A model generated the notes under the pieces. That model was not told where the DNA came from. It ran no database searches and was given only the letters and a program-made list of their open reading frames with translations. 33,016 nt of DNA from a virus: positions 1 through 33,016 of IMG/VR virus record IMGVR_UViG_3300044732_000869; one strand, given 5' to 3'. Shown one piece after another: positions 12,247 to 32,706 of this stretch. Numbering within the stretch: the first letter of the stretch is position 1; each line of letters opens with the position of its first letter. Position numbers and translations under genes: made by a program.

Positions 12247-12273
12247 TAAAACATAGCAGAGGTTCTTACTAAC

Positions 12274-14978: not shown

Positions 14979-14994
14979 TCTCTTAAATATTCTC

Positions 14995-15999: not shown

Positions 16000-16007
16000 T
16001 ATAAATA
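16000..16007 (+). promoter_or_regulatory. T4-type late promoter (perfect TATAAATA)
   Basis: A perfect match to the T4 late-promoter octamer, in the 59-base intergenic gap and 27 bases before the ATG of the next gene. It is the only exact octamer I found on the + strand. It precedes an uninterrupted run of 13 tightly packed genes ending at 29796 and is the obvious candidate to drive them late in infection. Confidence 0.7.
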
Positions 16008-16023
16008 AACTACGCAGTTTATC

Positions 16024-16030
16024 AAGGAGA
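16024..16030 (+). promoter_or_regulatory. strong ribosome binding site (AAGGAGA)
   Basis: AAGGAGA ends four bases before ATG 16035, the strongest Shine-Dalgarno match on the + strand. It fixes the start of the first gene of the late operon. Confidence 0.75.
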
Positions 16031-16034
16031 ACTC

Positions 16035-16385
16035 ATGAACGCACAGTTAAAAGCTGTATTGGATTTTGCCAATTATCAGCAGACTTTTTCAATCCACAAA
16101 AAAATTCTCAAAGAACGCACAGCTGCCAAACTGATGTACGGTTTCTCCGGCGGGCTGTTTGCCATTGATAGAAATCTGTTGACATTTGTTGAAATGCTGT
16201 GTAGCAAAGGCAGAGTTTCTGGAACGGTGCTGTTAGACGTCAATGAAAATCCCATATTGATAGAAAATCTAGAAGCTTTTCGTGATGAAATCTTCAGCAG
16301 ATATTTCGAAGTCACTAATGAATACTTTCAAGAATTTGATAAAATCAAGAAATCTAGATCTGTAGAAAAACTTATCACACAATGA
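16035..16385 (+). CDS. small conserved protein of unknown function, 116 aa
   Basis: The start is fixed by the AAGGAGA at 16024-16030 and a perfect late promoter upstream. The protein looks mainly alpha-helical: an N-terminal helix (LKAVLDFANYQQTFSIHKK), a short strand-and-turn region around YGFSGGLFAIDRNLL, a strand pair near GTVLLDVNENPI, and a charged C-terminal helix (NEYFQEFDKIKKSRSVEKL). It contains one Cys and no membrane segment. The stop overlaps the start of the first glycosyltransferase as ATGA. I do not recognise a family. Being first behind the strongest late promoter and ribosome binding site suggests abundant synthesis, so a virion or assembly role is possible. Confidence 0.7.
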   Translation: MNAQLKAVLDFANYQQTFSIHKKILKERTAAKLMYGFSGGLFAIDRNLLTFVEMLCSKGRVSGTVLLDVNENPILIENLEAFRDEIFSRYFEVTNEYFQEFDKIKKSRSVEKLITQ

Positions 16386-17242
16386 CCAATGGCATTTTAA
16401 TTTTCGCACACAATAATCGTGAAGTAGATTATGGATTATTAGCAGTGATCAGCGGCGGTCTTGCAAAAAAACATCTTAATGTTCCAGTTTCATTGGTCAC
16501 AGATCTCAGCACCAAGGAATGGTTGATTGAATCACATACATGGCAGCAGGTTGAAACAGTATTCGAGCATGTGATAATTGTAGATAAACCTGTCACAGAT
16601 AATCAACGTGGATTACACGACGGTGTAATCAATAAAAAAATACCATTTTGTAATACCAATAGACACTCTGTATGGGACCTCACACCCTACGATAGAACGC
16701 TACTGATAGACAGCGATTTTTTGATATTCAGTGATAATCTAAACAAATATTGGAATGTGGAAGCTGACGTAATGATAGGTGATTCGATCAACGATATCTA
16801 CAGTGAAGAAAGATTAGGCTACCTTGATAGATATGTCTGTGAAACCAGCTGTAAAATGTATTGGGCAACCACAGTGATGTTCACGAAAAATCCACAATCT
16901 AAACTGTTTTTTGATACTGTGAATTTAGTCAAAGAAAATTACAAGCACTATGCTGATGTCTTCCGATTCGATCACAGACAATATCGAAATGACATAGCGT
17001 TTAGTGTTGCCAAACACATGCTAGATGGATTTGAGAACATGCACACACCAACACTCCCACCCGTGTTATCAGTCATGGACAAAGACATACTCACTGCTGT
17101 CGACAAAGACAAATTAACATTCTTGATTGATCATCGATTAGATGCCACATATTGTGCAGCATCTGTGACTGGAGTTGATATACATGTGATGAATAAACAA
17201 AGTATATTGAGACATCGACAACAGTTAATGGAGTTGATATGA
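16382..17242 (+). CDS. GT-A-like glycosyltransferase (DSD motif)
   Basis: A 286-residue protein starting GILIFAHNNREVDYGLLAVI, a strand and helix typical of nucleotide-diphospho-sugar transferases. Residues 103-112 read YDRTLLIDSD, giving the D110-S-D112 motif that in GT-A enzymes binds the metal and sugar-nucleotide diphosphate. Further on are YWATTVMFTKN and a His-rich segment near VFRFDHRQYRNDIAFSVAKH, placed as in GT8-like enzymes where the acceptor side is formed. It overlaps both neighbours by four bases (ATGA), and the gene after it is a distant paralogue, so the two may act in sequence or as a pair. Donor and acceptor cannot be read from the sequence. Virion or host surface glycans are both possible targets. 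Confidence 0.72.
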   Translation: MTNGILIFAHNNREVDYGLLAVISGGLAKKHLNVPVSLVTDLSTKEWLIESHTWQQVETVFEHVIIVDKPVTDNQRGLHDGVINKKIPFCNTNRHSVWDLTPYDRTLLIDSDFLIFSDNLNKYWNVEADVMIGDSINDIYSEERLGYLDRYVCETSCKMYWATTVMFTKNPQSKLFFDTVNLVKENYKHYADVFRFDHRQYRNDIAFSVAKHMLDGFENMHTPTLPPVLSVMDKDILTAVDKDKLTFLIDHRLDATYCAASVTGVDIHVMNKQSILRHRQQLMELI

Positions 17243-18078
17243 ACTTTGGATATCTGTTGTTTGTAGCACACTATGATGACATTGATTATCTCAAGTGCGC
17301 CTATGCTCTAGCTTTGAGTATAAAAACCACTCAAAAACCAGGGTATGACAGGGTGGCACTGGTAATTGACAACAAAGAATCACTTGCAAAATTATCAAGT
17401 CCGTGGGTGTTTGACACAGTGATCGAATGGGACCAAGAGAAATATTGGGATGGCAGATCATGGATGGACCAACTGTCTCCGTTTGATCACACAGTATGCC
17501 TTGATGCTGATATGTTATTCCTACGAGATTACAGTCATTGGATTGATTATTTTATTGCCAACAGCGAATTGTATGTGGCCAATCAGGTCTATACCTATAG
17601 AGGCGAAACAATCACAGATCGCACATATAGAAAAACCTTTGACAGAAATTGTCTGCCGGATTTATACTCCATGTGGACTTTTTTCTCTAAAGGATCTGTG
17701 CTATGCCAAGAATTTTTTGAATTAGGTCGACAGATTATAAAAAATCCCCGCGAATTCGCCAATCAGTTTTTAAGTGAACACAGGCCTAAGGTAATTGGCA
17801 CAGATGAAGCATTCGCATTGGCTGCTAACATACTAGACATCACTGACGACATTGCCTACGATTTACCATTTCCTCGAGTAGTGCATATGAAACCAATGCT
17901 GCAAAAATGGCCATGGCCGGCTGATACTTGGAGCGATCATGTGGGATTTTATCTTAATGCAGACGCTAGACTAAAGATAGGAAATTTTCAACAGAATGAT
18001 ATTGTGCATTACGTAGAGAAAAATTTAATCACAAATGAGTGTATACATATCTTGGAGACTAAAGCATGGAAACTATAG
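17239..18078 (+). CDS. GT-A-like glycosyltransferase (DAD motif), paralogue of the preceding gene
   Basis: A 279-residue protein with GGAG at 17230-17233, five bases before ATG. It begins GYLLFVAHYDDIDYLKCAYAL and carries PFDHTVCLDADMLFLRD, the D89-A-D91 motif of GT-A glycosyltransferases, followed by YSHWIDYF. A later segment (KVIGTDEAFALAANIL) has the conserved Asp-Glu position seen in GT8-like folds, and VVHMKPMLQKWPWP sits where such enzymes close over the donor. It aligns with the preceding protein around the N-terminal strand and the DxD block but is otherwise quite divergent. Overlap is four bases upstream and thirteen downstream. Assignment to a glycosyltransferase superfamily is good; the reaction is unknown. 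Confidence 0.74.
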   Translation: MNFGYLLFVAHYDDIDYLKCAYALALSIKTTQKPGYDRVALVIDNKESLAKLSSPWVFDTVIEWDQEKYWDGRSWMDQLSPFDHTVCLDADMLFLRDYSHWIDYFIANSELYVANQVYTYRGETITDRTYRKTFDRNCLPDLYSMWTFFSKGSVLCQEFFELGRQIIKNPREFANQFLSEHRPKVIGTDEAFALAANILDITDDIAYDLPFPRVVHMKPMLQKWPWPADTWSDHVGFYLNADARLKIGNFQQNDIVHYVEKNLITNECIHILETKAWKL

Positions 18079-18683
18079 AAGATTTTGATAAATGGCTGAG
18101 AGAATACAAGCCACCAATTACACAGTATGTAGCGGTGTTTGATCCAAATACGGGTCAAGTTATCAGCGTGGGGCCAGATCATGCTTTTGCAGATCAAAAA
18201 CATATAGTGCAGATATCACAAGAAATTGCTGAATCCATAATCACAGCTGAAATACAGATACACAACTGTCAAATAAATGTAGAGTCAGGACAGTTAGACA
18301 TAGCTGAAAAAAAGACACTAAACAAATTAGATGATGTGTTGCATAGAATTCCTGATATCAAATATTCAGATCAAATTGAATCGGATATACATATAACATA
18401 TAATTCAAAAAACAAATATTTGAAAATTCAACTGTCTACAGAATACGGCGGAACCAAAAAATACAAAGGCAACGACGGAACAAGAAAATTTATTTGGGAT
18501 GGTAGCACCGATCTGGATTTTTTAATCACAGATTACAACGATCCCAACTTGATTTTTCAGATGTTTTCTGTTAAACTAAATGAACTAATAGGGCATAATG
18601 TAACAATTAAAAATATTGACTATGATAAGTTTAGTGTGTATACAAGACGCCTATTTAAAAATTATGTGATTGAATATAAATGA
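18066..18683 (+). CDS. conserved protein of unknown function between glycosyltransferase genes, 205 aa
   Basis: ATG 18066 follows GGAG with eight-base spacing. The N-terminal 55 residues contain ITQYVAVFDPNTGQVISVG followed by PDHAF, a beta-hairpin-like unit; an acidic helical middle follows (IAESIITAEIQIHNCQINV, then IAEKKTLNKLDDVL). The C-terminal half has beta-type sequence with KYKGNDGTRKFIWDGSTDLD and ends NIDYDKFSVYTRRLFKNYV. No DxD, Cys cluster or membrane segment is visible. It overlaps the genes on both sides by 13 and 4 bases, so it is made with the glycosyltransferases. It could be a virion protein that the enzymes modify or an accessory subunit; neither is shown by the sequence. 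Confidence 0.62.
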   Translation: METIEDFDKWLREYKPPITQYVAVFDPNTGQVISVGPDHAFADQKHIVQISQEIAESIITAEIQIHNCQINVESGQLDIAEKKTLNKLDDVLHRIPDIKYSDQIESDIHITYNSKNKYLKIQLSTEYGGTKKYKGNDGTRKFIWDGSTDLDFLITDYNDPNLIFQMFSVKLNELIGHNVTIKNIDYDKFSVYTRRLFKNYVIEYK

Positions 18684-19597
18684 AAGTAATTGAATTTGAT
18701 GTAGTTTTTTTAAGTTACGACGAACCTAACGCAGATCTGCATTATGCTGACTTGTGTAATAAAGTACCTTGGGCTAAACGTATTCACGGAGTCAAAGGAT
18801 CAGACCACGCCCATAAAGCCGCAGCAGAAGCCAGTGAAACAGATTGGTTTATCACTGTTGATGCTGATAATATTGTAGATCCTAGATTTTTTAATATCGA
18901 CCTTGACATGAGTGATCCCAAGATACAGGTCTATGGTTGGTGCGGCCGCAATGCAATTAATGGTCTTCGATATGGCAACGGTGGATTGAAAATCTGGCGT
19001 AAAGATTTTGTTCTTAACATGAAAACGCATGAAAACTCCAACAGTGATCGCGGCCAAGTAGACTTTTGTTGGGAAGATGGGTATAGAAATTTTCCATTGA
19101 CGTTCAGTGAAAGCGTTATCACAGGATCACCATTCCAAGCATGGAGAGCAGGATTCCGTGAAGGTGTTAAGATGACTTTGCTAGACGGGGTCAAAGTTCC
19201 TCCTATGGAAATTAAAGAACGCATATGGTGGCACAATATCCATAGACTGCGCATGTGGTCAACTGTGGGTGCTCACGAAGAAAACGGAATTTATGCAGTA
19301 TATGGTGCTAGATTAGGAACATGGATGGCTAATTGCACACAGTGGAATTATGTCGATGTTCGAGATTTTGAAATACTCAGAGATATATGGAATCAATACG
19401 GTAAACCGTATGAAGATGTAAACGGTGATGGTCTAGTAGATGAGATTAAAAATTTAGGCGAAAAAATAAAAATGAGTTTGGGATTAGATTGGCCGTTTCT
19501 TGATGCGCAGCAAAGTAAATTTACTTTAGATTTGTATAATGAAACCATGAATCTCAACGACACTTATTTTAAGATGCCGGTGCCAGCCAATGTATGA
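18680..19597 (+). CDS. glycosyltransferase-like protein of a phage family (DAD motif)
   Basis: A 305-residue protein with the family signature FDVVFLSYDEPNADLHY near the N-terminus, then AKRIHGVKGSDHAHKAA, DWFITVDADNIVD (D61-A-D63), a YGNGGLKIW block and AWRAGFREGVKM near residues 155-166. The same blocks in the same order make up the C-terminal domain of the next gene. The DxD motif and the strand preceding it fit a GT-A nucleotide-sugar transferase, though this family is less well described than GT2 or GT8. It overlaps the upstream gene by four bases (ATGA) and the downstream gene by eight. I am confident of the family relationship within this window and moderately confident of a glycosyltransferase reaction. 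Confidence 0.7.
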   Translation: MKVIEFDVVFLSYDEPNADLHYADLCNKVPWAKRIHGVKGSDHAHKAAAEASETDWFITVDADNIVDPRFFNIDLDMSDPKIQVYGWCGRNAINGLRYGNGGLKIWRKDFVLNMKTHENSNSDRGQVDFCWEDGYRNFPLTFSESVITGSPFQAWRAGFREGVKMTLLDGVKVPPMEIKERIWWHNIHRLRMWSTVGAHEENGIYAVYGARLGTWMANCTQWNYVDVRDFEILRDIWNQYGKPYEDVNGDGLVDEIKNLGEKIKMSLGLDWPFLDAQQSKFTLDLYNETMNLNDTYFKMPVPANV

Positions 19598-21899
19598 TAT
19601 TTTTTATGTTTCAAAAGGCGAAGGAAATACTAAAGATTGGAATGCAATAAAGTCTAGGTATCCCCTTGCTCAAAAATTAACAAACATAAAGTCTTACGAA
19701 GAAATTCGATCTAAATCTTTTACAAAAATGTTCTGGGTAATCTGGGACGATATAAATCTTACAGAATTTAATTTATTAGATTATAAAGCCACTAAGTGGG
19801 ATGACATGTATGTTCACGTTTTTAAAAACGGAGAACACTATGATGGTATTTGTTTGTTTCCTAAATCGTTGACGATTTCTCAGCGTGAATTTCATCATAG
19901 ATTTTTTACAGCTAAAAAAGAAATTGATATTGTTGCTAGTATTCCAAAACAATATAAAACATACAGTCCTAATACATTCAACGAATACCAACACATAACC
20001 GACGACATGTTTTGGCTAGTATGGCCAGAAGTTACTGTAACTGACAAATCAATTTTTGACATATATTTTAGTCATCATAATAGTTATGACCGCAGAGAAA
20101 ATCATGTATTTAAAAATCTCTGCAATAGTGTTGAATCTTATCTCAGCGGAGTAATCCTTTGCAGCAAATATAAACCTTTATCAAATCGAGAGTTTGATAA
20201 ACAGTATGCTGTAGATAAAAAAGAGCACAACAAAGTTGTCAGCAAATATCAATACCCAGTTTATAAAATTAATTCTTATGCTGATTATTTAGAGATTATT
20301 GACAATGAAAAACAACAAATGTTTTGGTGTCAGTGGCCTAGTATAGAAATTATTGACGATACAATATTTGATTTTTATCTTGATCCTAACAATGGTGCAT
20401 TAGATTATGATAGGCAAGAAAATCATGTATTTAAAAATTTATGCAATGATAAAGAATCATATCTAAGCGGAGTTGTTTTATTTTCTAAATCTAAAATTAT
20501 TTCTAAGAAAGAATTTGATAGAAAATATTTAATTGACAAAAAAGAACATACCCGCATAGTTAGTAGGTATAGATATAATCGATACAATATTTCCAGTTAC
20601 GAAGAATATAAACAAATTATAGAAACAGAAACTCAACCTTTATTCTGGGGTATCTGGCCCGAAATAGCTGTTACAGATAATTCTGTTTTTGATTTATATT
20701 TTGATCCCAATGACGGAAAATACGATCAAGATAGAAAAACAAATCATATGTTTAAAAATTTGTGTAACGATAAAGAAACTTATCTTTGTGGATTAGTATT
20801 GTTTTCAACAACACAAGTTATTTCACAGAAAGAATTTAATAGAAGATATTTAATAGATAAAAAAGAACATGCAGAAGTTGTAAGCCGTTACAGATATAAT
20901 AGATATGTGTTATCGTCATATGACGAGTATACCGACATTGTTAAAAAAGAAACCCAACCACTATTTTGGGGAATCTGGCCCGAAATAGATATTATCGACG
21001 AATCGATATTTGATTTATATTTTGATCCCAATGACGGAAAATACGAACACGATCGAAAAGAAAATCATACATTTAAACACTTATTCAATGAAAAAGAAAT
21101 TTTTGTTAACGGTGTAGTGTTATTGTCTAAAGATAAAATAATTGGTCAAAGAGAATTTAAACACAGATTTTTAATTGAGAAAAAAGAACATGATAGATTA
21201 GTATCTAAACATTCTTTATATGATGTTGTTTTTATTTCTTATAACGAACCCAATGCCGATGAAAACTGTAACAAGTTATTAGAAATGTGTCCAAGAGCAA
21301 AACGTATTCACGGAGTTAAAGGAATTCACCAGGCGCATATACAAGCAGCTAAAATGTGCAATACTGACATGATATGGATCGTTGACGGTGATGCTATTGT
21401 CGAAAATGATTTTAATTTTAATTTAGTTATGAGTAGTTACGACATAGACTGTGTTCATGTTTGGAAAAGCCGCAATCCTATTAACAATCTAGAATACGGC
21501 AACGGAGGTGTTAAGTTATTACCAAGACAATTAACAATATCTGTTGATGTTAATTCGCCCGATATGACCACTAGCATATCGAAAAAATTTAAAGCTATGA
21601 ATACTGTGTCTAACACGAATTCATTTAACACAGATGAATTTGCTACATGGAGATCAGCATTTAGAGAATGTTGTAAACTAGCTAGTCGTGTAATCGAAAG
21701 ACAATACGAGGAAGAAACTACACATCGTTTAGATGTATGGTGCTCAGTTGGTGTTGATAAACTATTTGGCAAATATGCAATTAAAGGTGCTCAGGCAGGT
21801 AGAGAATACGGCGAAACTAACAAAAACAATCCAGAGGCCCTTAAGAAAATTAATGACTTTGATTGGTTAAAGGAACAGTTCAGTGGAATACAATCGTAA
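19590..21899 (+). CDS. five-repeat protein with C-terminal glycosyltransferase-like domain, 769 aa
   Basis: The C-terminal domain (residues 544-769) matches the preceding protein block by block: YDVVFISYNEPNADEN, AKRIHGVKGIHQAH, MIWIVDGDAIVEND (D599-G-D601), YGNGGVKLL and TWRSAFRECCKLASRV. In front of it, residues 47-543 are five tandem units starting at residues 47, 140, 244, 351 and 458, each opening (M/L)FWxxW and continuing through HxFKNL, SGVVLFSK-like, (S/G)xxEFxxxY and DKKEH segments. The opening of each unit looks like the catalytic-strand block with the metal-binding Asp pair replaced (WDD, WPE or WPS). So the units may be remnants of glycosyltransferase domains, leaving only the last catalytically intact. 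The gene is markedly AT-rich. It overlaps both neighbours. Substrate unknown. Confidence 0.7.
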   Translation: MYDIFYVSKGEGNTKDWNAIKSRYPLAQKLTNIKSYEEIRSKSFTKMFWVIWDDINLTEFNLLDYKATKWDDMYVHVFKNGEHYDGICLFPKSLTISQREFHHRFFTAKKEIDIVASIPKQYKTYSPNTFNEYQHITDDMFWLVWPEVTVTDKSIFDIYFSHHNSYDRRENHVFKNLCNSVESYLSGVILCSKYKPLSNREFDKQYAVDKKEHNKVVSKYQYPVYKINSYADYLEIIDNEKQQMFWCQWPSIEIIDDTIFDFYLDPNNGALDYDRQENHVFKNLCNDKESYLSGVVLFSKSKIISKKEFDRKYLIDKKEHTRIVSRYRYNRYNISSYEEYKQIIETETQPLFWGIWPEIAVTDNSVFDLYFDPNDGKYDQDRKTNHMFKNLCNDKETYLCGLVLFSTTQVISQKEFNRRYLIDKKEHAEVVSRYRYNRYVLSSYDEYTDIVKKETQPLFWGIWPEIDIIDESIFDLYFDPNDGKYEHDRKENHTFKHLFNEKEIFVNGVVLLSKDKIIGQREFKHRFLIEKKEHDRLVSKHSLYDVVFISYNEPNADENCNKLLEMCPRAKRIHGVKGIHQAHIQAAKMCNTDMIWIVDGDAIVENDFNFNLVMSSYDIDCVHVWKSRNPINNLEYGNGGVKLLPRQLTISVDVNSPDMTTSISKKFKAMNTVSNTNSFNTDEFATWRSAFRECCKLASRVIERQYEEETTHRLDVWCSVGVDKLFGKYAIKGAQAGREYGETNKNNPEALKKINDFDWLKEQFSGIQS
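19728..21218 (+). repeat. five tandem coding repeats inside the 769-aa gene
   Basis: Units begin at 19728, 20007, 20319, 20640 and 20961, giving lengths of 93, 104, 107 and 107 codons and a last one of about 86 before the catalytic domain. Units 4 and 5 are the most alike: 20691-20725 and 21012-21046 are identical over 35 bases, exactly 321 bases (107 codons) apart. Unit 1 is the most divergent. The pattern suggests stepwise internal duplication, with the last step most recent. Confidence 0.85.
21869..21874 (+). promoter_or_regulatory. ribosome binding site deciding a GTG start
   Basis: AAAGGA lies eight bases before GTG 21883 inside the end of the upstream gene. It supports a GTG start and a 17-base overlap for the first radical-SAM gene. 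Confidence 0.6.
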
Positions 21900-23316
21900 T
21901 ATAAAAGGCAACGAACTTAAAGAGATTAACGGTAGATATGAATCTCGATATCTTGCTGATGCTGACTACGTGTATAAAGAACTAAACAAAGTTAGTCCGA
22001 GCTTTTGTCTTGCTAAATGGTATAATGTTAGTCTACACATTCCTACGGGAAAAACACATAGTTGTTATCATCCTAGGACACATCAAGTTCCTTTAGAAGA
22101 AGTTCGAATTGATGTTAGTGCATTACATAATACAAAATATAAAAAAGAACAACGCAAATTAATGTTAGCTGGAGAACGTCCTAAAGAATGTGAATTTTGT
22201 TGGCAGATAGAAGATAGTGGTACGCAGTTAAGTGATCGTGCATATCGAAGTAAAGATGTTTACGAACACGGTTTAATAGAAGAAGCACAGTTAGTAGAAA
22301 ATCCTAATCCACGCTACGTTGAAGTAAATTTTAATCAAGCCTGTAATTTTAAATGTAGTTATTGCAGCCCTCATCTAAGTACAGCATGGCACAACGATAT
22401 TCAACATAACGGTGCGTTTATTTTAAAAGATCGTTGGCACAATGATATTAATTGGATGAAGAGTCTTAACATAGATAACGGGCCAAACAATCCTTACTTG
22501 CTAGCGTTCTGGGAATGGTTGCCACAGATATATCCAACACTACATACATTCCGTATGACTGGCGGTGAGCCATTGATGGATAAGAACACGTTCCGTATGT
22601 TTGACTATGTTAAAGAACATCCTAAAGAAGATCTGCATCTAAGTATTACTAGTAACTGTTGTCCGCCGGGTGATCAGTGGGCTAAATTTATGACTAGTCT
22701 TAAAGAGATTACAGATGTAGATGCAATTGATCATTTTATGTTGTATTGTAGTTTAGACTCTTGGGGTAATCAAGCAGAATATATTCGCAACGGTATGGAT
22801 TTTAATCTACTGTATAATAATGTATGTGATTATTTGCAAAATAGTGATAAACACAGTTTAACATTTATTATAACTTTTACCGCATTAAGTTATACAGGAT
22901 TTTATTCTTACATAGAAAATATTTTAAAACTTAGAAAACAATATAACAAAGGACGTCAATTAGTTTGGTTTGATGTTCCACAGTTATTAGATCCTGATTT
23001 TTTAAATCCTAAATTATTACCAGAAATGGTTAGTGAATTAGAACGCACTATAGAATTTATGAAATACAATCCTGAAACACGCTGGAACGAATTTAAAGGA
23101 TTTAGTGATTTTGAAATTAGTAAGGTTCAGCGTTTAATTGATTGGATTAAATCGGATACAGGTTTTAATCGTGAGCTGGCGATGGAAAATTTTTATTTGT
23201 TCTTTAGCCAGCATGATGCACGTAGAGATACAAATTTTTTAAATACTTTTCCAGAGTTAGAAAATTTCTGGAAAGAATGCGAGGTAAAATGCAAGAAAGC
23301 AATACACAAGCAATGA
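21883..23316 (+). CDS. radical-SAM protein with N-terminal auxiliary cysteines (permuted twitch/SPASM-like), 477 aa
   Basis: Starts at GTG 21883, with AAAGGA eight bases upstream. The radical-SAM cluster motif is C154-x3-C158-x2-C161 (ACNFKCSYC), followed by the S-adenosylmethionine-contacting block MTGGEPLMD. In front of this core are further Cys: C42 in FCLAKW, C61 in HSCYHP and the pair C103/C106 in CEFCW. That spacing resembles a SPASM/twitch module, which binds an auxiliary iron-sulphur cluster but normally lies after the core. The C-terminal segment (FYLFFSQHDARRDTNFLNTF, then PELENFWKEC) is shared with the radical-SAM gene at 23983. Such enzymes usually modify peptides or sugars by radical chemistry; this one's substrate is unknown. 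It overlaps the glycosyltransferase gene by 17 bases. Confidence 0.85.
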   Translation: MEYNRNIKGNELKEINGRYESRYLADADYVYKELNKVSPSFCLAKWYNVSLHIPTGKTHSCYHPRTHQVPLEEVRIDVSALHNTKYKKEQRKLMLAGERPKECEFCWQIEDSGTQLSDRAYRSKDVYEHGLIEEAQLVENPNPRYVEVNFNQACNFKCSYCSPHLSTAWHNDIQHNGAFILKDRWHNDINWMKSLNIDNGPNNPYLLAFWEWLPQIYPTLHTFRMTGGEPLMDKNTFRMFDYVKEHPKEDLHLSITSNCCPPGDQWAKFMTSLKEITDVDAIDHFMLYCSLDSWGNQAEYIRNGMDFNLLYNNVCDYLQNSDKHSLTFIITFTALSYTGFYSYIENILKLRKQYNKGRQLVWFDVPQLLDPDFLNPKLLPEMVSELERTIEFMKYNPETRWNEFKGFSDFEISKVQRLIDWIKSDTGFNRELAMENFYLFFSQHDARRDTNFLNTFPELENFWKECEVKCKKAIHKQ

Positions 23317-23993
23317 CGATTTTCATATACGGTGATAGTTTTAGCATGTCTAGTGAAGTGAGATGCACTTCGTGGATTGATCAATTACATGGAAAACATC
23401 AACTAATAAATCGATCAATTGCAGGTGCAAGCAATCATTATATATTTTTAAGATTCATGGAAGACTTAGACCGTATAACACCTGACGATTTAGTTGTTTT
23501 TTGTTGGTCTGAGAATCAAAGATATTATCAGAAAGATTCTAAGAAGACACAAGAAATTCACCAGTTGTATCATAAACACTTTTATAATCAACGTCTTCTT
23601 GAAATGCAGTCTGATATGTATTTGGATAAGATCGAAGCGGTTGTTAAAGAACGAAAGATCCGCATGTTGTTTTTCTGGGCTTTCCCTTCCGGATACGGTG
23701 ATTCGAGCAATTGGGTATCTACTAAATTTGTATCCGAGGATAGCTTAGTTTATTCGCACACATTTGAAAACGAAGTTAGGCCAGCTCTGATATATTTCTC
23801 TAGAATAGAAATACCAAAAAAATATTTAAACACAGAAGAAAAACTGCTTGAGTTTGCCTCTAAAGATATGAGACCTAATCATATGGCTAACCAAAAATTG
23901 CACGACGAACTATTTAAAATAGTAGATGATGTTTTTCATCATAGACTAGCAGGTCAAATTAATTTAAAAAACAGGTTACATAATGAGTCATAA
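23289..23993 (+). CDS. SGNH-hydrolase-like protein, about 234 aa
   Basis: Block I is IFIYGDSFSM, with the candidate nucleophile Ser in GDS at the very N-terminus. SIAGASNHYIF supplies a G-x-S-N element for the oxyanion hole, and MRPNHMANQKLHDELF near the C-terminus gives the HxxN/H region where the catalytic His is expected. ATG 23289 has GAGG four bases upstream; ATG 23313, which overlaps the previous stop as ATGA, is equally plausible and would start MTIFIYGDSF. An ATG at 23277 lacks support. SGNH enzymes hydrolyse or transfer acyl groups, often acetyl groups on sugars. Its place between two related radical-SAM genes suggests work on the same substrate. Activity is inferred, since block III is only partly clear. 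Confidence 0.65.
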   Translation: MQESNTQAMTIFIYGDSFSMSSEVRCTSWIDQLHGKHQLINRSIAGASNHYIFLRFMEDLDRITPDDLVVFCWSENQRYYQKDSKKTQEIHQLYHKHFYNQRLLEMQSDMYLDKIEAVVKERKIRMLFFWAFPSGYGDSSNWVSTKFVSEDSLVYSHTFENEVRPALIYFSRIEIPKKYLNTEEKLLEFASKDMRPNHMANQKLHDELFKIVDDVFHHRLAGQINLKNRLHNES

Positions 23994-25341
23994 ATTACAA
24001 TATATTAAAAACGTAAGAGATAGATTAAACAAAGTCGGTACGGGATTCTGTGCAATGAAGTGGTTGCACCAAACTCTGTATCTACACACCGGTGATAATC
24101 ACAGTTGCTATCATCCGCGCCCACATCATATTGGTTTAGATGAAATTGCAGCAGATCCTAGTGCATTACACAATACAAAATGGAAAAAAGAACAGCGTAA
24201 AACCATGTTAGAAGGCGGTCGCCCTAACGAATGCCAATATTGTTGGAATATTGAAGATCTACCAGGCGAGCATATCAGTGACAGAATGATACATAGTTCC
24301 AGTGATTTCAGCGAACCACTGATTGAAAAACTAGCAGAATTACCTTGGGATGCTCCGGTTAATCCTCGTTACTTAGAAGTGAGTTTTGGTAACGGATGTA
24401 ATTATCGTTGCGGTTATTGCTGCCCACAAGCAAGCACCATGTGGACAGAAGAAATCAAGAAGCATGGCAATTACGATCTAACCTATAATCAGTATGGCAT
24501 TGAGTTTATGACCAACGGAACATACTACGGTCCTAAAGACGAAAATCCCTACATTGAAGCATTCTGGAAATGGTGGCCAAGTTTAAAAAATGACTTACAT
24601 ACTCTGCGTATTACTGGCGGCGAACCTCTAATGAATCCAGGGGCTATGCAGTTTTTTGATTTGCTAGAAACAGAACCAAGTCCTCATTTAGAAATTACAT
24701 TAAACAGTAATCTAGGTGTAACCTTTGATCGTGTTGACAGACTTATTCAAAGAGTAACTAGTCTTGTTCGTCAAAAGAAGATCCGTAAATTTAGTTTCTT
24801 TACAAGCATTGATAGTTGGGGCGAGCAAGCAGAATATATGCGTACAGGACTTAAATGTGATCACTGGGAACGCAATATGATAGAAGTAATCAAGGCAGGT
24901 GCTACTGTAAATTTGATGTGTACCTATAATGTCTTGTGCGTTACTAACTTTCAACAACTATTAGAAAAGGTAATCGAATGGCGCGAGAAGTTTGGATTTG
25001 AGTCAGTGTCTTTTGATACACCGTACTTGAAAGAACCACCACATTGGATGATTAACATTCTCACAGATGATTTTATAGCACATCAAGAACGTCAATTACA
25101 ATTTATTGTAGACAATAAAAAATGGTTCACCGACGTCGAATATGAAAAAATGCTTCGTGTTACAGACTATATGAAAGAGAATCCGGTAAGCAAAGAAAAG
25201 ATTCATGCTGGCAGAAGAGACTTTTATAGTTTTTTTAAAGAAAATGACAAACGTCTAGGTACAGATTTACTAAAGACATTTCCAGAATACACAGAATTTT
25301 ATAATCTGTGCAAACAAATTTACGAAAATTATGACAAATAA
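23983..25341 (+). CDS. radical-SAM protein with N-terminal auxiliary cysteines, 452 aa, paralogue of the gene at 21883
   Basis: The core motif is C139-x3-C143-x2-C146 (CNYRCGYC), with ITGGEPLMN later. The auxiliary Cys precede it: C23 (FCAMKW), C42 (HSCYHP) and C84/C87 (CQYCW). It shares SALHNTKWKKEQRKTML and the C-terminal FYSFF...FPEY segment with the gene at 21883, so the two arose by duplication and are now separated by an SGNH gene. The conserved HSCYHPR-P-H segment between the first auxiliary Cys pair marks these two as one subfamily. Overlaps are 11 bases on each side. No strong ribosome binding site is visible, so translation probably depends on the upstream gene. Substrate unknown; a peptide or sugar is expected from the family. 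Confidence 0.85.
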   Translation: MSHKLQYIKNVRDRLNKVGTGFCAMKWLHQTLYLHTGDNHSCYHPRPHHIGLDEIAADPSALHNTKWKKEQRKTMLEGGRPNECQYCWNIEDLPGEHISDRMIHSSSDFSEPLIEKLAELPWDAPVNPRYLEVSFGNGCNYRCGYCCPQASTMWTEEIKKHGNYDLTYNQYGIEFMTNGTYYGPKDENPYIEAFWKWWPSLKNDLHTLRITGGEPLMNPGAMQFFDLLETEPSPHLEITLNSNLGVTFDRVDRLIQRVTSLVRQKKIRKFSFFTSIDSWGEQAEYMRTGLKCDHWERNMIEVIKAGATVNLMCTYNVLCVTNFQQLLEKVIEWREKFGFESVSFDTPYLKEPPHWMINILTDDFIAHQERQLQFIVDNKKWFTDVEYEKMLRVTDYMKENPVSKEKIHAGRRDFYSFFKENDKRLGTDLLKTFPEYTEFYNLCKQIYENYDK

Positions 25342-26533
25342 ATCCACTTACTGTGTGAATCCATACATGAATCTAAGTATTCATCCTAAAGGCATAGTTA
25401 AAACATGCTGCATGAGTACTCGAGAATTGGTTACTGACTCAGGGAAGACTACCATTAATAATGCTAGTATTTTGGAGTTTTGGAATAGTAAAGATCGTCA
25501 ACAAATGATTAGCAATCTTAATAACGGGGTTAAAATACCGGAATGCACATTTTGCTGGCAAGAAGAGGAAGCCGGCAAGGAAAGCAAACGAATTAGAGAC
25601 AATAAAACGTATGCAAGTATTATTACTGATAGTGACATGTTACCAGTAGTTGTAGACCTAAGTATGGGAAATCTATGCAATATAAAATGTAGGATATGTA
25701 GCCCAACACACTCTACTCCTTGGATGATTGAAGAAGCTAGTATACATTTTCCAAATAATAAACAAGCATATTTAAAACAACCGAGGTGGCAAACTGTTAA
25801 AGATAGTTTTGATTACGAAAATAAATTTCTGTGGGATGATATTACTGCATTATTGCCCAATGTAACTAAATTTGATTTTGCCGGAGGCGAACCTTTTTAT
25901 ATCGAAAAACACTGGAGTATTGTAAACAAATGCGTTGAGGAAGGGTGGAGTAAAAAACAACACATTCATTATAACACTAATGGCACTATCTACCCAGAGA
26001 AATATATGTCATTGCTAGAAGAGTTTAGACTTGTGGATATACAAATCAGCAGTGATGGTGTCGGTAAGAAATTTGAATATTGCCGTCATCCAGCTGTTTG
26101 GGAAGAAGTAGAAGAAAATATTGATAAGTTTATTTCTGCAAAAAATAATAGCAAAACTGAATGGTTGCTATCTGCTTGTATTTCTGTTTCAGCATTTAAT
26201 GTATATGATTTTTTTGAAACATTTGAGCATTATGCCAGCAAGGGCATCGGTATATATGTTAATATGGTGCACGATCATCATAGTATCAAAGTGTTGCCTT
26301 GTGAATTAAAACAATCAATAATTAATAGACTCAATGCATCTGAATCTAAATATCTGCCACAACAGTGGAACAATGATAGAAATATGGTTATACAATACCT
26401 ATCTAACACAGAATTTTTTGAATCAGACTGGATTAATTTTTGGGCAGAACTCGAAAAGCGAGATACAATAAGAAAAGAATCTTTCAAAGAGATCTTTCCT
26501 GAATATTTCAACGAAATTAAAAAATACTTATAG
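25331..26533 (+). CDS. radical-SAM protein with N-terminal auxiliary cysteines, 400 aa
   Basis: The core motif is C116-x3-C120-x2-C123 (CNIKCRICSP), followed by FDFAGGEPFYIE, a GGEP block. Auxiliary Cys come first: C8 (YCVNPY), C26/C27 (KTCC) and C72/C75 (CTFCW). The opening YCVNPYMNLSIHPKGIVKTC closely resembles the usual C-terminal SPASM opening, but here it is the N-terminus. The C-terminal end FKEIFPEYFNEIKKYL recalls the ends of the two preceding radical-SAM proteins. It overlaps the upstream gene by 11 bases. It is shorter than the two preceding paralogues and has no HSCYHP element, so it belongs to a different branch. Function in peptide or glycan modification is inferred. Confidence 0.85.
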   Translation: MTNKSTYCVNPYMNLSIHPKGIVKTCCMSTRELVTDSGKTTINNASILEFWNSKDRQQMISNLNNGVKIPECTFCWQEEEAGKESKRIRDNKTYASIITDSDMLPVVVDLSMGNLCNIKCRICSPTHSTPWMIEEASIHFPNNKQAYLKQPRWQTVKDSFDYENKFLWDDITALLPNVTKFDFAGGEPFYIEKHWSIVNKCVEEGWSKKQHIHYNTNGTIYPEKYMSLLEEFRLVDIQISSDGVGKKFEYCRHPAVWEEVEENIDKFISAKNNSKTEWLLSACISVSAFNVYDFFETFEHYASKGIGIYVNMVHDHHSIKVLPCELKQSIINRLNASESKYLPQQWNNDRNMVIQYLSNTEFFESDWINFWAELEKRDTIRKESFKEIFPEYFNEIKKYL

Positions 26534-26541
26534 GATATAAT

Positions 26542-27768
26542 ATGTGGAATGATGCAGTAACACAGGTTCATTGGGAACCAACAGACAAATGTAACAGTGG
26601 ATGTTCTATGTGTCCAAGATATGATTCAAAAGGTTTTGAGATAAGCACATTAGAAAATAAAGAATGGACTTTAGAAAGTTTTAAAAAAGCATGGTCTGTA
26701 AAATTTTTATCGCAATTGCAAAAGATACTTGCTTGTGGTAACTTTGGTGATCCTTGCGCCTGTAGAGAATTTGTAGACATATATGAATACTGCAGAGAAA
26801 TCAATCCAGGCATGGGGCTTGCCTGTAACACTAACGGTAGCCTTAGAAATCCAGCATGGTGGAGTCGGTTAGGGGCTGTGATGCGTGAAGATCAAAATCT
26901 AGGTAACTACTGTACGTTTAGTCTAGATGGACTTGAAGACACAAATCATCTTTATCGTCGAAATACCAACTGGAAAAAAATCATGGAAAACGCCAAAGCA
27001 TTTATTGATGCTGGCGGTGTTGCTCATTGGGATTTTATTGTATTTGAGCACAATGAACATCAAGTTGAGGAAGCTAGAGAACTAGCACGTTCTATGGGCT
27101 TTAAGAACTTTAACGTTAAAAGAACTACCCGTTGGGCAAAATACAAAGACGGTGTTGGGTCATATCCTGTTTATTCCAAAGGCATACACTTGTATGATCT
27201 TAAACAACCCAATGAAGATAAATTCAAACACAACTTTGAAGATTCGCAATACTTCAAGCAGAGCAAATATCAAAGTATCACGCTGAATGATTTTAAAAAT
27301 ATGGTAGGTATCAAGAATGGGGACATGAGATTTGTAAATGGAAAATGGGAAACTATTGATCTAGATTCACTTAACATAGCGTGCCGCGCAGTCAAAGATG
27401 CTAGAATGCATCAACCGCACAATGAAATATTTGTAAGTGCAGGAGGACATGTTGCTCCTTGTTGTTTTTTAGGTTCCGAGCCTATGATAGATACCAAAGT
27501 TAAAGACCGAGACGAAAATTATATCAGTATGATTAATGCTCAAGGTGGACTACATAGACTTAATATGCATATCAACGATATCTACGACATACTGCAATTA
27601 GATATTTTCCAGAAATGGATTCCCGACACGTGGGATAACGAAAATGGTAATACTTCAATGCGTCCAGCGAAATGCGGACAATGCTGTGGTGTAGAATTTA
27701 ATGGTCTCGATTTTGGAGAACTTGGAAACAAAAAAGATTCATACATTATCAAGGAAAACAATGAATAA
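26542..27768 (+). CDS. radical-SAM protein with conventional C-terminal SPASM/twitch-like region, 408 aa
   Basis: TAGGAT precedes the ATG. The core motif is right at the N-terminus: C17-x3-C21-x2-C24 (CNSGCSMCPR). Instead of a GGEP block it has GNFGDP, a variant found in other radical-SAM families. The C-terminal part has Cys C281, C307/C308 (HVAPCC), C378 and C381/C382 (CGQCC), as expected for one or two auxiliary iron-sulphur clusters of the SPASM/twitch type. This is the reverse of the domain order of the other four radical-SAM proteins here. An eight-base gap separates it from the upstream gene and it overlaps the downstream one by eight bases. The substrate cannot be read from sequence. 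Confidence 0.85.
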   Translation: MWNDAVTQVHWEPTDKCNSGCSMCPRYDSKGFEISTLENKEWTLESFKKAWSVKFLSQLQKILACGNFGDPCACREFVDIYEYCREINPGMGLACNTNGSLRNPAWWSRLGAVMREDQNLGNYCTFSLDGLEDTNHLYRRNTNWKKIMENAKAFIDAGGVAHWDFIVFEHNEHQVEEARELARSMGFKNFNVKRTTRWAKYKDGVGSYPVYSKGIHLYDLKQPNEDKFKHNFEDSQYFKQSKYQSITLNDFKNMVGIKNGDMRFVNGKWETIDLDSLNIACRAVKDARMHQPHNEIFVSAGGHVAPCCFLGSEPMIDTKVKDRDENYISMINAQGGLHRLNMHINDIYDILQLDIFQKWIPDTWDNENGNTSMRPAKCGQCCGVEFNGLDFGELGNKKDSYIIKENNE

Positions 27769-28960
27769 TTTATGTGTCTTACCTTTTAATAGCATAAGCA
27801 TAGATGCAGTCGGGCAATTTAGAGCTTGTTGTAGCAGTGGAACCAATGGATTCAAATTATATGCCAAGGATTTAACTCCTGAAGAATTCATTAATAATAA
27901 AAAAATTGTAGAACTAAGACAGGATTTTTTAAATGGACAAAAGCCTAGTAACTGTGATCGATGCTGGAACATGGAGGCTATCGGGAATCCTAGTTTTAGA
28001 CACGTAGCAAATGAAAATCAATCTTATGGAATAAAAAATAACAAGACGATTGAATTTAAAAGTCACATAGGTTTTGAAAATATACAGTATCTTGATATTA
28101 CACTAGGAAATAAATGTAATCTCGCCTGTCGAATGTGCAGTCCTTATAGCAGTTCTTTAGTTGCCAAACAATGGAATATCATTAATAAATCACAGGGTCA
28201 CAAGGAAATCATCGAATTTGATAGATCTACCAAAGACAAAATACTTGACACAATCAACAAATCTGTTAACTTAACAGAAATATACATGTTGGGAGGAGAA
28301 CCACTGGTATCTGAATTTCACGATGAGATTGTTGAACTGCTCATTGCGAACGGTAGATCAAAAAATTTAATCTTGCATTACAATACAAACCTACAAATTG
28401 ATGCTGAACGTAAATTAGAAGTATGGGAAAAATTTAGAAATATAGATTTAAGCATCAGTATAGACGGCCATGGTGATACTTATGAGTATATAAGGTGGCC
28501 TGGAAATTGGGCTAAATTACATAAAAATATAAACCTTGTAATTGATTATTCTAAACAGAATAAGAATATACTACCTGGAATAGCCACCACTGTGCAAAAT
28601 TTAAATGTTGATAACTTAGACCAACTTATTGATAGCATGCATGAACTATCAGATAATAAACTCAGCTTTTATTTTATTCCGGTAGTTCAATTCAATGAGC
28701 TTGACATAACACCCTTGCATGTTTTGGAAGAGTCACACAGCAAATTACAAAAGTATAGAAATACATCGTTGCATCGAGCAGATGAATTATTAAATATGAT
28801 TAAGGAAGCAATAGATAAATCTAAAAATGTGGACTCTAAAAGGGTGGTCGAATTTTTTAAAATGCAAAAAAACTATGATATGATACGTAATCAAAATTTA
28901 TTCAAAATCAAACCTCATTTTATAGAATACGCAAAACAATTCAAGGTAAACACATGGTAA
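27761..28960 (+). CDS. radical-SAM protein with N-terminal auxiliary cysteines, 399 aa
   Basis: ATG 27761 is chosen because AAGGA at 27751-27755 lies five bases upstream and the protein then begins MNNLCVLPFNSISIDAVG, the auxiliary-cluster opening. The frame stays open up to 27701 but that part only overlaps the previous gene. Auxiliary Cys are C5, C23/C24 (RACC) and C65/C68 (CDRCW). The core is C119-x3-C123-x2-C126 (CNLACRMCSPYSSS), with IYMLGGEPLVSE after it. The N-terminal opening is most like that of the gene at 25331. It overlaps the upstream gene by eight and the downstream SGNH-like gene by seven bases. Radical-SAM identity is clear; the target is not. Confidence 0.85.
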   Translation: MNNLCVLPFNSISIDAVGQFRACCSSGTNGFKLYAKDLTPEEFINNKKIVELRQDFLNGQKPSNCDRCWNMEAIGNPSFRHVANENQSYGIKNNKTIEFKSHIGFENIQYLDITLGNKCNLACRMCSPYSSSLVAKQWNIINKSQGHKEIIEFDRSTKDKILDTINKSVNLTEIYMLGGEPLVSEFHDEIVELLIANGRSKNLILHYNTNLQIDAERKLEVWEKFRNIDLSISIDGHGDTYEYIRWPGNWAKLHKNINLVIDYSKQNKNILPGIATTVQNLNVDNLDQLIDSMHELSDNKLSFYFIPVVQFNELDITPLHVLEESHSKLQKYRNTSLHRADELLNMIKEAIDKSKNVDSKRVVEFFKMQKNYDMIRNQNLFKIKPHFIEYAKQFKVNTW

Positions 28961-29796
28961 AACTTACTATCAAAGAAAATACATTTAATGTAAAAAGAAT
29001 CGTAGCATTCGGTTGCAGTTTTACAGCCGGGACCGAAATACTAGATTATCAATTAAATCCCTATTTTGTAGATTTAAAAAATAAATTAGATGCGTATCAG
29101 TGGTGGGAAAAACTTAAAAAAGATCCAGATCAGATGAAGCTACAGCTAGAAATTCGAAAACAAGAACCCAACCATTCTTGGCCGGCACATCTAGCTTCTT
29201 ACTTGGGTGTGAACTTTATAAATTATGCAAAGCCTGGTAATAGTAATGAACTCATGTGTTGGCAGATAGAACAAAAATTAAATTCGGGAGAAATTACCGA
29301 TGACGATTTAATTTTGGTCGGAACAACCGGAACCCAGCGATCTATGTTTTTCTCTAGTACCTATCCAGAACCTGTGCCGTTTTTACTTTCAAATATCGAA
29401 TCGTACAAAGTCGAACTATCAGAACATATAACAAAATATTTCACAGACGATAGACTCTTGTGGAATTATTATAGAGATTTAAAAGTATTCGAATCAATAA
29501 AACAGAAAATAAATGGCAGATTGTTTGTGATCCCTATGGAACAAATTCGTGAAGAATTATGTCTTTGGCCCAGCACACACGCTTACGGCACATATCGGGT
29601 AGCGTCACTTGAGAATGCTTTATTTTTTAACAAAATAATAAATCAATTACATAATTCTCAACTATTTGCAACTACAGATTGTTGTTTATACGATTTTAAA
29701 ACGGAAAAAACTACATTACCACATGGACATTTAAATGAGGATGCTCATAAATCTTTCGCCGAACAGCTTTACAAAGAGCATGTTATTATCAACTAA
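28954..29796 (+). CDS. SGNH-hydrolase-like protein, 280 aa
   Basis: Residues 15-26 read RIVAFGCSFTAG, a GxSxTxG-like block I with S22 the likely nucleophile. INYAKPGNSNELM gives a G-N-S-N element, DDLILVGTTGTQRSMFF corresponds to the third block, and HGHLNEDAHKSFAEQLY near the C-terminus has the His-rich end where the catalytic dyad is expected. This is a different branch from the other SGNH-like protein at 23289 (GCSFTAG instead of GDSFSM). It is the last gene of the late + strand run, and its stop lies 22 bases before the convergent methyltransferase gene. Acyl-ester hydrolysis or transfer on a glycan is the likely type of reaction; phage relatives of this type are often not characterised. 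Confidence 0.65.
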   Translation: MVKLTIKENTFNVKRIVAFGCSFTAGTEILDYQLNPYFVDLKNKLDAYQWWEKLKKDPDQMKLQLEIRKQEPNHSWPAHLASYLGVNFINYAKPGNSNELMCWQIEQKLNSGEITDDDLILVGTTGTQRSMFFSSTYPEPVPFLLSNIESYKVELSEHITKYFTDDRLLWNYYRDLKVFESIKQKINGRLFVIPMEQIREELCLWPSTHAYGTYRVASLENALFFNKIINQLHNSQLFATTDCCLYDFKTEKTTLPHGHLNEDAHKSFAEQLYKEHVIIN

Positions 29797-29818: not shown

Positions 29819-30469
29819 CTATAATTTAATTAATGGATTTGTTATTATTGCACATAGATCAAGTTTCCAGAGTCCGTTGTGTTCGATATTAAAATAGACT
29901 AATTCTAAATGATGTTCTTTGGCAAATCTGTTGGCACACTTGTTAATATGTTCATACATACAATCGTCGACAAATATAATACCGGGCTTCATGTTCGCAT
30001 AACAATATTCTAAGTCAGTTTTTAAAACTTCGTCCTTATGGCTACCATCGAGTATTATACAACTCATTTGAGAAATATCAACATTATGCACTACATCTGT
30101 AATTAACGTAATATTATCGCACTCTTTTTTATACAATTTTTGAATATGTCTAAAAGATGCGGGCTCTAACATAAGTTCGGGATACTTCGATCGTAGGTGC
30201 ATTAAATGATCTGAGAGACCTTTCATTGCGAAGTATTCTTCAAAGTTGCTAGGGTCAACGGTTGTTATTGAATTGCTTGGGAATTCTTTTGCTAGTATAT
30301 ATGTAGTGCCGCCTGCAAATGTTCCAATTTCTAATATTTGTGTTAACTTATAATCATTGATTGCTTTGATAATAGGTGTTAACTTATTCATGGGCATCAA
30401 CGACATTGGTCGAGATGTTAAAATCTCTATTACTTCTTTTTCTACAGATGAATCATCGACTCTATACAT
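29819..30469 (-). CDS. class I SAM-dependent methyltransferase
   Basis: About 216 residues if begun at the ATG ending at 30469 (MYRVDDSSVEKEV); a TTG at 30484 would add five residues, and neither has a clear ribosome binding site. ILEIGTFAGGTTYILAKEF is motif I, the S-adenosylmethionine-binding loop; ITTVDPS has the acidic residue after strand 2, IILDGSH lies near strand 4, and PGIIFVDDCMY corresponds to motif VI with a DD pair. This pattern fits O-methyltransferases of the Methyltransf_24 or catechol type, often acting on small metabolites or sugars. It is the last gene of the - strand run and converges on the SGNH-like gene. It could belong functionally with the glycan-modifying cluster, which the sequence does not prove. 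Confidence 0.75.
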   Translation of the reverse strand: MYRVDDSSVEKEVIEILTSRPMSLMPMNKLTPIIKAINDYKLTQILEIGTFAGGTTYILAKEFPSNSITTVDPSNFEEYFAMKGLSDHLMHLRSKYPELMLEPASFRHIQKLYKKECDNITLITDVVHNVDISQMSCIILDGSHKDEVLKTDLEYCYANMKPGIIFVDDCMYEHINKCANRFAKEHHLELVYFNIEHNGLWKLDLCAIITNPLIKL

Positions 30470-30497
30470 AAGTAAATCTAACAATGCTTTTAATCAT

Positions 30498-31955: not shown

Positions 31956-31963
31956 AGTGAAAA

Positions 31964-31971
31964 TATTTATA
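31964..31971 (-). promoter_or_regulatory. T4-type late promoter on the - strand (perfect TATAAATA)
   Basis: A perfect octamer, read on the - strand, in the 24-base gap between the 132- and 89-residue genes. It points toward the run of small genes and the methyltransferase. Its closeness to ATG 31955 is unusual. Confidence 0.6.
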
Positions 31972-31979
31972 CGGTGGGA

Positions 31980-32378: not shown

Positions 32379-32379
32379 A

Positions 32380-32699: not shown

Positions 32700-32706
32700 T
32701 TTTTTT

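Follow-up and report, generated by a model that had tools for sequence, protein, structure and literature searches.

Does the long run of sugar and radical enzymes beside the tail fibre genes of a phage act as one system and, if not, what are its parts and what might they modify? We addressed this question in a 33,016-base viral record from IMG/VR (IMGVR_UViG_3300044732_000869, hereafter the window), in which 13 co-directional open reading frames (ORFs) on the + strand, named A to M, span positions 16035-29796 between fibre genes (o1-o8) on the left and a conserved block (x1-x7) on the right. An initial annotation had described these genes as a single set combining glycosyltransferases (GTs), radical S-adenosylmethionine (SAM) proteins and SGNH-like proteins. 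Comparison with metagenome-derived relatives, named here as L- and G-numbered loci and records, revealed two modules instead: A-F constitute a fixed module beside the fibre genes, and G-M are an exchangeable cassette lodged between F and x1-x7. The single 13-gene system was rejected, since the block after F is exchanged and sometimes inverted while A-F stays together.

A fixed module and an exchangeable cassette

Relatives were collected in three scans. Those made with C and E were not selected on radical SAM genes; the third, which was the first to be made, used a radical SAM protein and is biased towards them. In the C and E scans, the gene after E was F in all loci with a gene there (148/148, not deduplicated). 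Seventy-two distinct loci contained F and at least 1.5 kb beyond it, and a same-strand radical SAM gene came next in 61 of them. Among the 11 others, L012, L093, L095, L101 and L104 carried radical SAM genes downstream and tblastn placed G right after F, L257 had a split F overlapped by G, and L156 had two other genes first. Radical SAM cassette genes lay on the minus strand in four loci (L244, L247, L249 and L276), of which L244 and L247 alone extend to x1. The inverted G-like ORF of L247 overlaps x1 by 17 nt; the slot is therefore the meeting point of two convergent blocks, either of which the cassette can extend. All 51 distinct complete cassettes from the three scans, near-identical strains included, keep a gene with the radical SAM motif. 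CX3CX2C genes longer than 200 aa numbered one (15 cassettes), two (10), three (1), four (18), five (6) or six (1), the G/I type being the most constant gene among cassettes.

Synonymous divergence (dS) supported the exchange of the cassette in both directions. L021, a close relative over A-D (dS 0.35-0.60 to the window), carries a different cassette without window-type J-M, with J and K saturated and L at 2.7. Conversely, L051 is a distant relative over A, B and D (dS 1.7-2.8, with C saturated) and shares the cassette of the window (0.50-0.70 over J-M). Unlinked occurrence in relatives, named beforehand as evidence against one system, was thus found in part, J-M being absent from a close relative and present in a distant one. 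L113 was 99-100% identical to the window from o3 to o6, its first 6.5 kb, before switching to another cassette, so that identical fibre genes accompany a different cassette both there (o3-o6) and in L016 (o6-o8). L016 equals the window up to 20653 and L013 from 19740 on, which places the join inside F; the apparent crossover stretch, 19740-20653, is identical in both parents and long enough for an assembly chimera. L089 agrees with L016 (1 difference in 10.5 kb), and the two may share samples. The dS discordance of L021 and L051 and the switch in L113 provide evidence of exchange independent of L016 and L089. The ratio of nonsynonymous to synonymous divergence (dN/dS) of cassette genes was 0.02-0.21 in pairs with dS below 1; these genes are under purifying selection.

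We also considered an invertible switch, which was rejected: in neither L244 nor L247 did an exact 11-nt inverted repeat link the end of F to the x1 side, and the same comparison in the window gave a single 10-mer at most. A general inverted-repeat search (25 longest per region) returned imperfect pairs, the longest of 40 nt at 73%, none of which spanned both borders. On these results, inversion looks like a lineage event and not a switch.

The features that delimit the two modules were the following:

118..15975, + strand: o1-o8, virion structural and tail fibre genes, left of the fixed module A-F
16000..16007, + strand: TATAAATA, T4-type late promoter element before A (exact match, 35 nt upstream of A)
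29819..30484, - strand: convergent methyltransferase (Methyltransf_24) at the end of this cassette type (PF13578 29.1 bits, cut-off 26.3)
30498..32955, - strand: x1-x7, conserved right-hand block bounding the cassette, retained across cassette types

The element TATAAATA, which we take to be the T4 late consensus, was found twice in the window, at 16000 (+) and at 31964-31971 (-), the latter within x1-x7, and this count is not above chance (shuffle mean 4.2). Its place before gene A is conserved. The exact element was present in 31 of 62 distinct regions upstream of A in relatives (at -32 to -39 in 30 of them), and a further 16 regions held seven consecutive bases of its eight at -32 to -34; the remaining 15 had neither version. 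Its background was 0.054 per kb, both strands, over 25 loci. A ribosome binding site, AAGGAG at 16024-16029, stands ahead of the start codon of A (ATG, 16035). Neighbouring genes overlapped at 11 of the 12 junctions, J and K being separated by 8 nt. Counted from the first start codon, the overlaps were 4-68 nt, the longest at G/H (40) and K/L (68); these two shrink to 28 and 8 nt if internal ATGs are the true starts, which recovers the 4-28 range given initially. Altogether, the layout described in the initial annotation, a late promoter and ribosome binding site heading one run of overlapping genes beside the fibres, was borne out in the window.

Directly left of A, o1, o3, o5 and o6 matched tail or virion structural PHROGs, o2 a PHROG of unknown function, and o7 and o8 had no PHROG match; o4 was similar to tail fibre or baseplate genes of isolated phages. 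The convergent methyltransferase had been proposed to complete the set. Copies at 100% occurred exclusively with this cassette type; other loci offered just 30-35% matches, on the + strand in L013 and L015-L018 and on the - strand in L031. On the far right, x3-x7 (31447-32955) were 87-96% identical to contigs that match the window at 100% over o6-x2, a drop that therefore suggests a further recombination border near x2/x3.

All 13 proteins were found at 100% (rounded) identity in five further IMG/VR contigs (L003, L005, L008, L009 and L011). L011, also numbered G001, is a 281,658-base contig and thus a 281-kb version of the phage with the same locus. The lineage belongs to the T4 superfamily, because the T4-type major capsid protein Gp23 (PF07068) was present in five of eight related records, G001 included, with best E-values of 5e-98 to 2e-100; the three records without a match are 75-87 kb and may be fragments.

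Protein F and the enzymes of the two modules

The genes of the fixed module, all on the + strand, were:

16035..16385, +: A, 116-aa conserved protein, first gene of the module (28-100% identity in relatives)
16382..17242, +: B, probable GT8-like GT-A glycosyltransferase (DxD columns, marginal glycogenin profile match)
17239..18078, +: C, probable GT8-like GT-A glycosyltransferase (DxD columns, marginal glycogenin profile match)
18066..18683, +: D, 205-aa conserved protein with a beta-rich C-terminal half (model with a predicted local distance difference test score, pLDDT, of 79)
18680..19597, +: E, GT-A glycosyltransferase homologous to the C-terminal domain of F (hhalign, invariant D61/D63)
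19590..21899, +: F, GT-A enzyme with five preceding GT-A-like units, apparent crossover site (model, GT-A matches, hhalign)

F, in which the apparent crossover falls, consists of a unit R0 (aa 1-118), four units of about 105 aa each (R1-R4) and a GT-A domain (aa 544-769). Its predicted structure had a mean pLDDT of 90.3, and in this model residues 541-705 fitted GT-A folds at Z about 10-11, the C-terminal domain aligning with B4GALNT1 at a VIA Z of 11.4 (root-mean-square deviation 2.8, 138 aligned). The best 50 PDB rows in Foldseek were all glycosyltransferases or nucleotidyltransferases, the PBCV-1 capsid GT included, and the viral structure library returned the GT of Mycobacterium phage Che8 and two uncharacterised long phage proteins aligning over most of F; these PDB and viral fold matches concern a single domain, whole-chain TM-scores being low. 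D599 and D601 of the DxD motif were invariant. We consider the C-terminal domain, on its modelled fold, a well supported GT-A glycosyltransferase with DxD.

The preceding units resemble this domain. In hhalign, the R0 profile matched the N-terminal 109 columns of the GT domain at 97.9% (E 5.7e-13). A profile built from 72 units of the R1-R4 type aligned with the region of the DxD strand in the same domain (92-94%, E about 1e-7), and a reversed-repeat control gave 0.1%. No match was obtained between the units and the profile of E (repeats 0.1%, R0 1.0%), though both match the GT domain of F. In the model of whole F, strands and helices follow in each unit the same order as in the GT domain, and R1-R4 show WPE or WPS where DxD would stand, DxD being absent. 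We tentatively read R0-R4 as degenerate, presumably non-catalytic GT-A copies. The F homologues fell into length classes spaced about 105 aa and had between 1 and 8 units as defined by the repeat motif, except for four more distant homologues in which no such motif was recognisable. The unit number differs even between close relatives: F has 8 units in L022 and 6 in L030, two loci that share 97.6% identity over 10.8 kb. We encountered no description of such repeats in the literature, in which no search by name was made.

The other GT assignments of the module were drawn from DxD columns, marginal profile matches and homology. E aligned with the C-terminal domain of F at 100% in hhalign (E 1.7e-42). 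B has invariant D110/D112 and a marginal match to glycogenin (E 0.03); C, which is phrog_1903, a PHROG of unknown function, has an invariant D91, a nearly invariant D89 and a similarly marginal match (E 0.02). The GT content proposed initially is well supported for F and probable for B, C and E. A had no Pfam or PHROG match, A and E had no match in isolated phages, and D and E had no solved-structure match by profile search. The model of D gave no Foldseek match at E<=0.001, its best VIA Z being 5.0.

The genes of the cassette were:

21883..23316, +: G, radical SAM protein with N-terminal twitch domain (NF033640 307.5 bits)
23277..23993, +: H, SGNH-like protein, a weak assignment by motif only (GDS motif)
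23983..25341, +: I, radical SAM protein with N-terminal twitch domain (NF033640 294.7 bits)
25331..26533, +: J, radical SAM protein with N-terminal SPASM/twitch domain (NF033640 285.5 bits; PF13186 26.7 bits)
26542..27768, +: K, radical SAM protein of another type with its core at the N-terminus (PF04055 40.6 bits)
27701..28960, +: L, radical SAM protein with N-terminal twitch domain (NF033640 288.5 bits; PF04055 40.8 bits)
28954..29796, +: M, SGNH/GDSL-like protein, a weak assignment (PF00657 19.0 bits, cut-off 23.6)

The five radical SAM proteins named initially were all recovered by the PF04055 and NF033640 profiles. Four of them, G, I, J and L, belong to NF033640 (N_Twi_rSAM, NCBIfam), scoring 285-307 bits against a curated cut-off of 170 bits; K scored 37.1 and falls outside this family. 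In an alignment of 31 sequences, C139, C143 and C146 of CX3CX2C and C23, C42, C84 and C87 stood in invariant columns, a combination of CX3CX2C and N-terminal auxiliary-cluster cysteines that is presumably the hallmark of NF033640. In the literature searched, no report of a tested function for this family came up. The two SGNH-like proteins resemble that family weakly, by motif: M stayed under the Pfam cut-off and H had no Pfam match. In isolated phages, I had just half-length matches at 24%, in two Vibrio phages. Radical SAM proteins of 816-821 aa, seemingly head-to-tail fusions of two twitch-type enzymes, were observed in two further loci (L145 15342-17792 and L149 12433-14898).

Candidate substrates of the two modules

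The explanation that we tentatively favour, as a serious possibility, is that two late-expressed modules decorate the virion, most likely the adjacent fibres, with a variable sugar in the cytoplasm. The idea of sugar and radical chemistry directed at virion components or glycans was thus retained from the initial annotation. We infer late timing, a joint pathway, a sugar substrate, a virion target and a role of the repeats as follows. Late in infection, cytoplasmic B, C, E and F would build or attach a short glycan, and the extra GT-A-like units of F may be repeats without catalytic activity that bind sugar or protein and determine reach or valency. The twitch-type radical SAM enzymes would tailor the sugar by oxidation, deoxygenation or epimerisation at unactivated carbons, the SGNH-like proteins may transfer acyl groups to it or remove them, and a cassette swap would swap the decoration. 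Bacterial O-antigen and flagellin-glycosylation loci offer a comparison, in which cassette swapping changes the decoration.

Decoration is supported by the adjacent fibres together with the position-conserved late-type element, and the sugar by the enzymes of alternative cassettes. When 20 proteins from other cassettes were compared with Pfam, 8 were above cut-off, 1 was sub-threshold and 11 had no match. The eight above cut-off are a GDP-mannose/dTDP-glucose (NDP-sugar 4,6-) dehydratase type (PF16363, 168 bits), a three-domain C-methyltransferase (PF08421/PF13489/PF08484), which we take to be of the deoxysugar type, an epimerase, a radical SAM protein that binds B12, a 2-oxoglutarate (2OG) oxygenase, two DUF6492 proteins and an AMP-binding enzyme. 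The GT-A matches of F to the PBCV-1 capsid GT and the Che8 GT, among many others, and the low dN/dS of cassette genes also support this explanation.

Two features of the 281-kb contig G001 add to this support. It contains 19 PF04055 matches, 18 of them over cut-off and the other, G, passing NF033640; five lie in this cluster, thirteen at 230-262 kb and one at 158 kb. The second cluster (230-262 kb; L162, L163) ends next to a fibre gene whose product has an Mtd N-terminal domain (Mtd_N). It encodes a QueC-family protein, an epimerase, a 2OG oxygenase and a radical SAM protein that weakly matches a B12-binding domain; matches to SDR proteins and to an amidinotransferase stayed below threshold, the latter being a weak ADI-family match (E 0.0026). 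At 216.6-217.9 kb (L167 11643-12889), genes for IscA, IscU and an Fe/Mn superoxide dismutase stand in a row, and the phage IscA and IscU plausibly serve the radical SAM enzymes in Fe-S assembly; IscU was found in one of eight records, the others being shorter and possibly fragments. A DAHP-synthase-family gene, presumably a KDO8P synthase, lies at 219946-220806 (L167; PF00793, 231.6 bits).

Several observations weigh against virion decoration. The cassette that is inverted in four loci runs opposite to A-F, and co-expression with A-F is thus not universal. Identical fibres accompany different cassettes, so decoration is not tied to fibre specificity. The GT-A matches of F are generic, IspD cytidylyltransferases tying with GTs within Z 1, and 11 of the 20 alternative-cassette proteins lack any Pfam match. 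No source of NDP-sugar is encoded in G-M, and no CMP-sugar synthetase (PF02348) was found in five related records, G001 included. Finally, in the loci tested, bacterial relatives of G and I stand beside GT4, PqqD-like and ABC-2 genes, a setting that fits exported glycans or modified peptides equally well.

This last point leads to the alternative that the enzymes alter the surface polysaccharide of the host, blocking superinfection or the re-adsorption of progeny, which is how the GTs of the pelagimyophage island (PMC7029224) and the polymorphic GT clusters of jumbo cyanophages (PMC7824862) have been read. A bacterial genome scan with one short pattern yielded at least 42 loci, at least 13 of them at E 1e-68 or better; among the matches listed, the 13 best were ten Bdellovibrio-/Bacteriovorax-like loci, one from Deltaproteobacteria, one from Beijerinckia and one from 'Neomarinimicrobiota'. 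Ten neighbours picked by eye in four Bdellovibrionota loci comprised four GT4 proteins (in four loci), three PqqD-like proteins, one ABC-2 permease, one ABC ATPase and one protein without a match; the ABC-2 exporter was tested in one locus, and other bacterial loci have similar transporter-like genes, judged from sequence only. Variation of cassettes on a constant fibre background also suits host-surface modification. Lipid-linked O-antigen and Gtr-type loci, however, need a multi-pass flippase, polymerase or GtrA/GtrC, and none of the 146 ORFs in 27 cassettes encoded a multi-pass membrane protein (four had a single hydrophobic segment), while the same hydrophobicity script found at least four segments in 18 ORFs of 15 bacterial loci. 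Flippases, polymerases and lipid-carrier enzymes of the usual type are thus missing from the 27 cassettes, as is any export component. As nothing tested in the locus crosses membranes and the fibres are adjacent, virion proteins are the likeliest target, and the late promoter type likewise speaks against the host surface, which we regard as an unlikely, if credible, target.

Two of the bacterial records deserve mention. The 'Neomarinimicrobiota' metagenome-assembled genome entry (L173, PBPT01000082.1) has the gene content of a phage of this lineage, including homologues of o4, o6, o7, A, B, C, E, G and I and a 444-aa protein without match in the place of D. A Bdellovibrionia contig (L168 130-14596) carries, within 15 kb, nine CX3CX2C ORFs that resemble radical SAM proteins of the phage.

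The substrates of twitch/SPASM-type enzymes are sugars in some pathways and peptides in others. Such enzymes could modify side chains of virion proteins, to which the GTs would add sugars. Consistent with such a role, peptide maturases figure among the weaker NCBIfam matches of G, I, J and L, all of which lie far under cut-offs, the bacterial relatives have PqqD-like (peptide-recognition) proteins nearby in three loci, and radical SAM genes, of which there are 5 here and 19 in the 281-kb contig, exceed GTs. On the other hand, of the elements expected in a RiPP biosynthesis cluster, PqqD had no match among the 13 proteins A-M, and overlapping or 8-nt junctions leave no space for a precursor peptide, although a virion protein could be the substrate; alternative cassettes also carry sugar-nucleotide enzymes. 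We judge this protein or peptide modification rather unlikely.

A cassette for small molecules or host metabolism (auxiliary metabolic genes) appears quite improbable. The radical SAM module of the Campylobacter phages CP220 and CPt10 was read in this way, as possibly raising the fitness of the infected host (PMC2853527), and the epimerase, QueC-family and other biosynthesis-like proteins of the second G001 cluster would agree with it; the late-type promoter and fibre linkage kept over deep divergence and the fixed GT module would not. DNA hypermodification with glycosylated bases is hardly credible: phage GTs can glucosylate DNA (PMC12619734), but five related records, which may be fragments, contained no thymidylate-synthase-type hydroxymethylase (PF00303), a result that favours virion decoration, as do the late promoter and fibre linkage.

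Comparable islands and significance

The combined set had initially been thought undescribed. This held in part: comparable clusters exist in pelagimyophages, in CP220/CPt10 and in Pelagibacter phage Mosig EXVC030M, and what distinguishes this island is its bounded slot, its inversions and its GT-A repeat protein.

The closest parallel is the host recognition cluster (HRC) of pelagimyophages and cyanomyophages, which holds GTs and in which two close genomes differ by radical SAM cassettes (PMC7029224). Both are hypervariable islands in the structural region of T4-superfamily phages, with tail fibres, GTs and exchanged radical SAM cassettes, and as in the HRC the variable block is flanked here on both sides, by o3-o8 and A-F on the left and x1-x7 on the right. 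Unlike the HRC as described there, the present island has a fixed GT module A-F, a bounded slot from F to x1, inversion, an apparent crossover in F and variable GT-A-like repeats, and the freshwater pelagimyophages of that study are given without radical SAM genes.

CP220 and CPt10 have an interchangeable module of five radical SAM genes, with 11 and 12 such proteins per phage (PMC2853527). About five radical SAM genes in a block swapped between close phages recall the cassettes described here, which have 1-6. In the CP220 record, two genes noted as nucleotide-diphospho-sugar transferases come after the module, which lies near a possible baseplate lysozyme. When I, K and L were searched, K alone had CP220 among its listed matches, with 23% identity across 45% of the length of K. 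The two systems differ in that the CP220/CPt10 module has a glycine amidinotransferase, of which G-M have none and G001 only the sub-threshold match in its second cluster, and in A and E, which had no match in isolated phages. The T4-like marine virus TARA_ERS488813_N000010 has 12 radical SAM genes and an A-type Fe-S carrier gene (PMC5332604), compared with 19 PF04055 matches and both IscU and IscA in G001. Mosig EXVC030M has three genes annotated as molybdenum-cofactor (MoaA-like) enzymes near tail fibre genes, in a cluster with a sugar aminotransferase, a carbamoyltransferase, a methyltransferase and an epimerase; its radical SAM types are different, and it showed no match to A or E (B, C, D and F were not searched). 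Virion glycans have been noted in mycobacteriophages (PMC12619734).

Islands rich in radical SAM genes have been noted in phages since 2010 (PMC2853527), with no tested function in the papers examined. A bounded slot beside the fibres, with many natural alternatives, some of them inverted, makes the question of function testable. It also offers, as a resource, a GT in which the number of GT-derived repeats varies, and a radical SAM set under purifying selection that probably acts on sugars or virion proteins. In its boldest form, which we consider doubtful though quite conceivable, the locus would be a phage counterpart of a bacterial serotype locus, in which a fixed fibre-glycosylation machine (A-F) is joined to a swappable, sometimes inverted slot for radical SAM sugar editing where two late operons meet. 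The repeat number of F would tune the glycan, and exchange through the F repeats would change the virion 'serotype' of an aquatic jumbo phage independently of its receptor-binding proteins.

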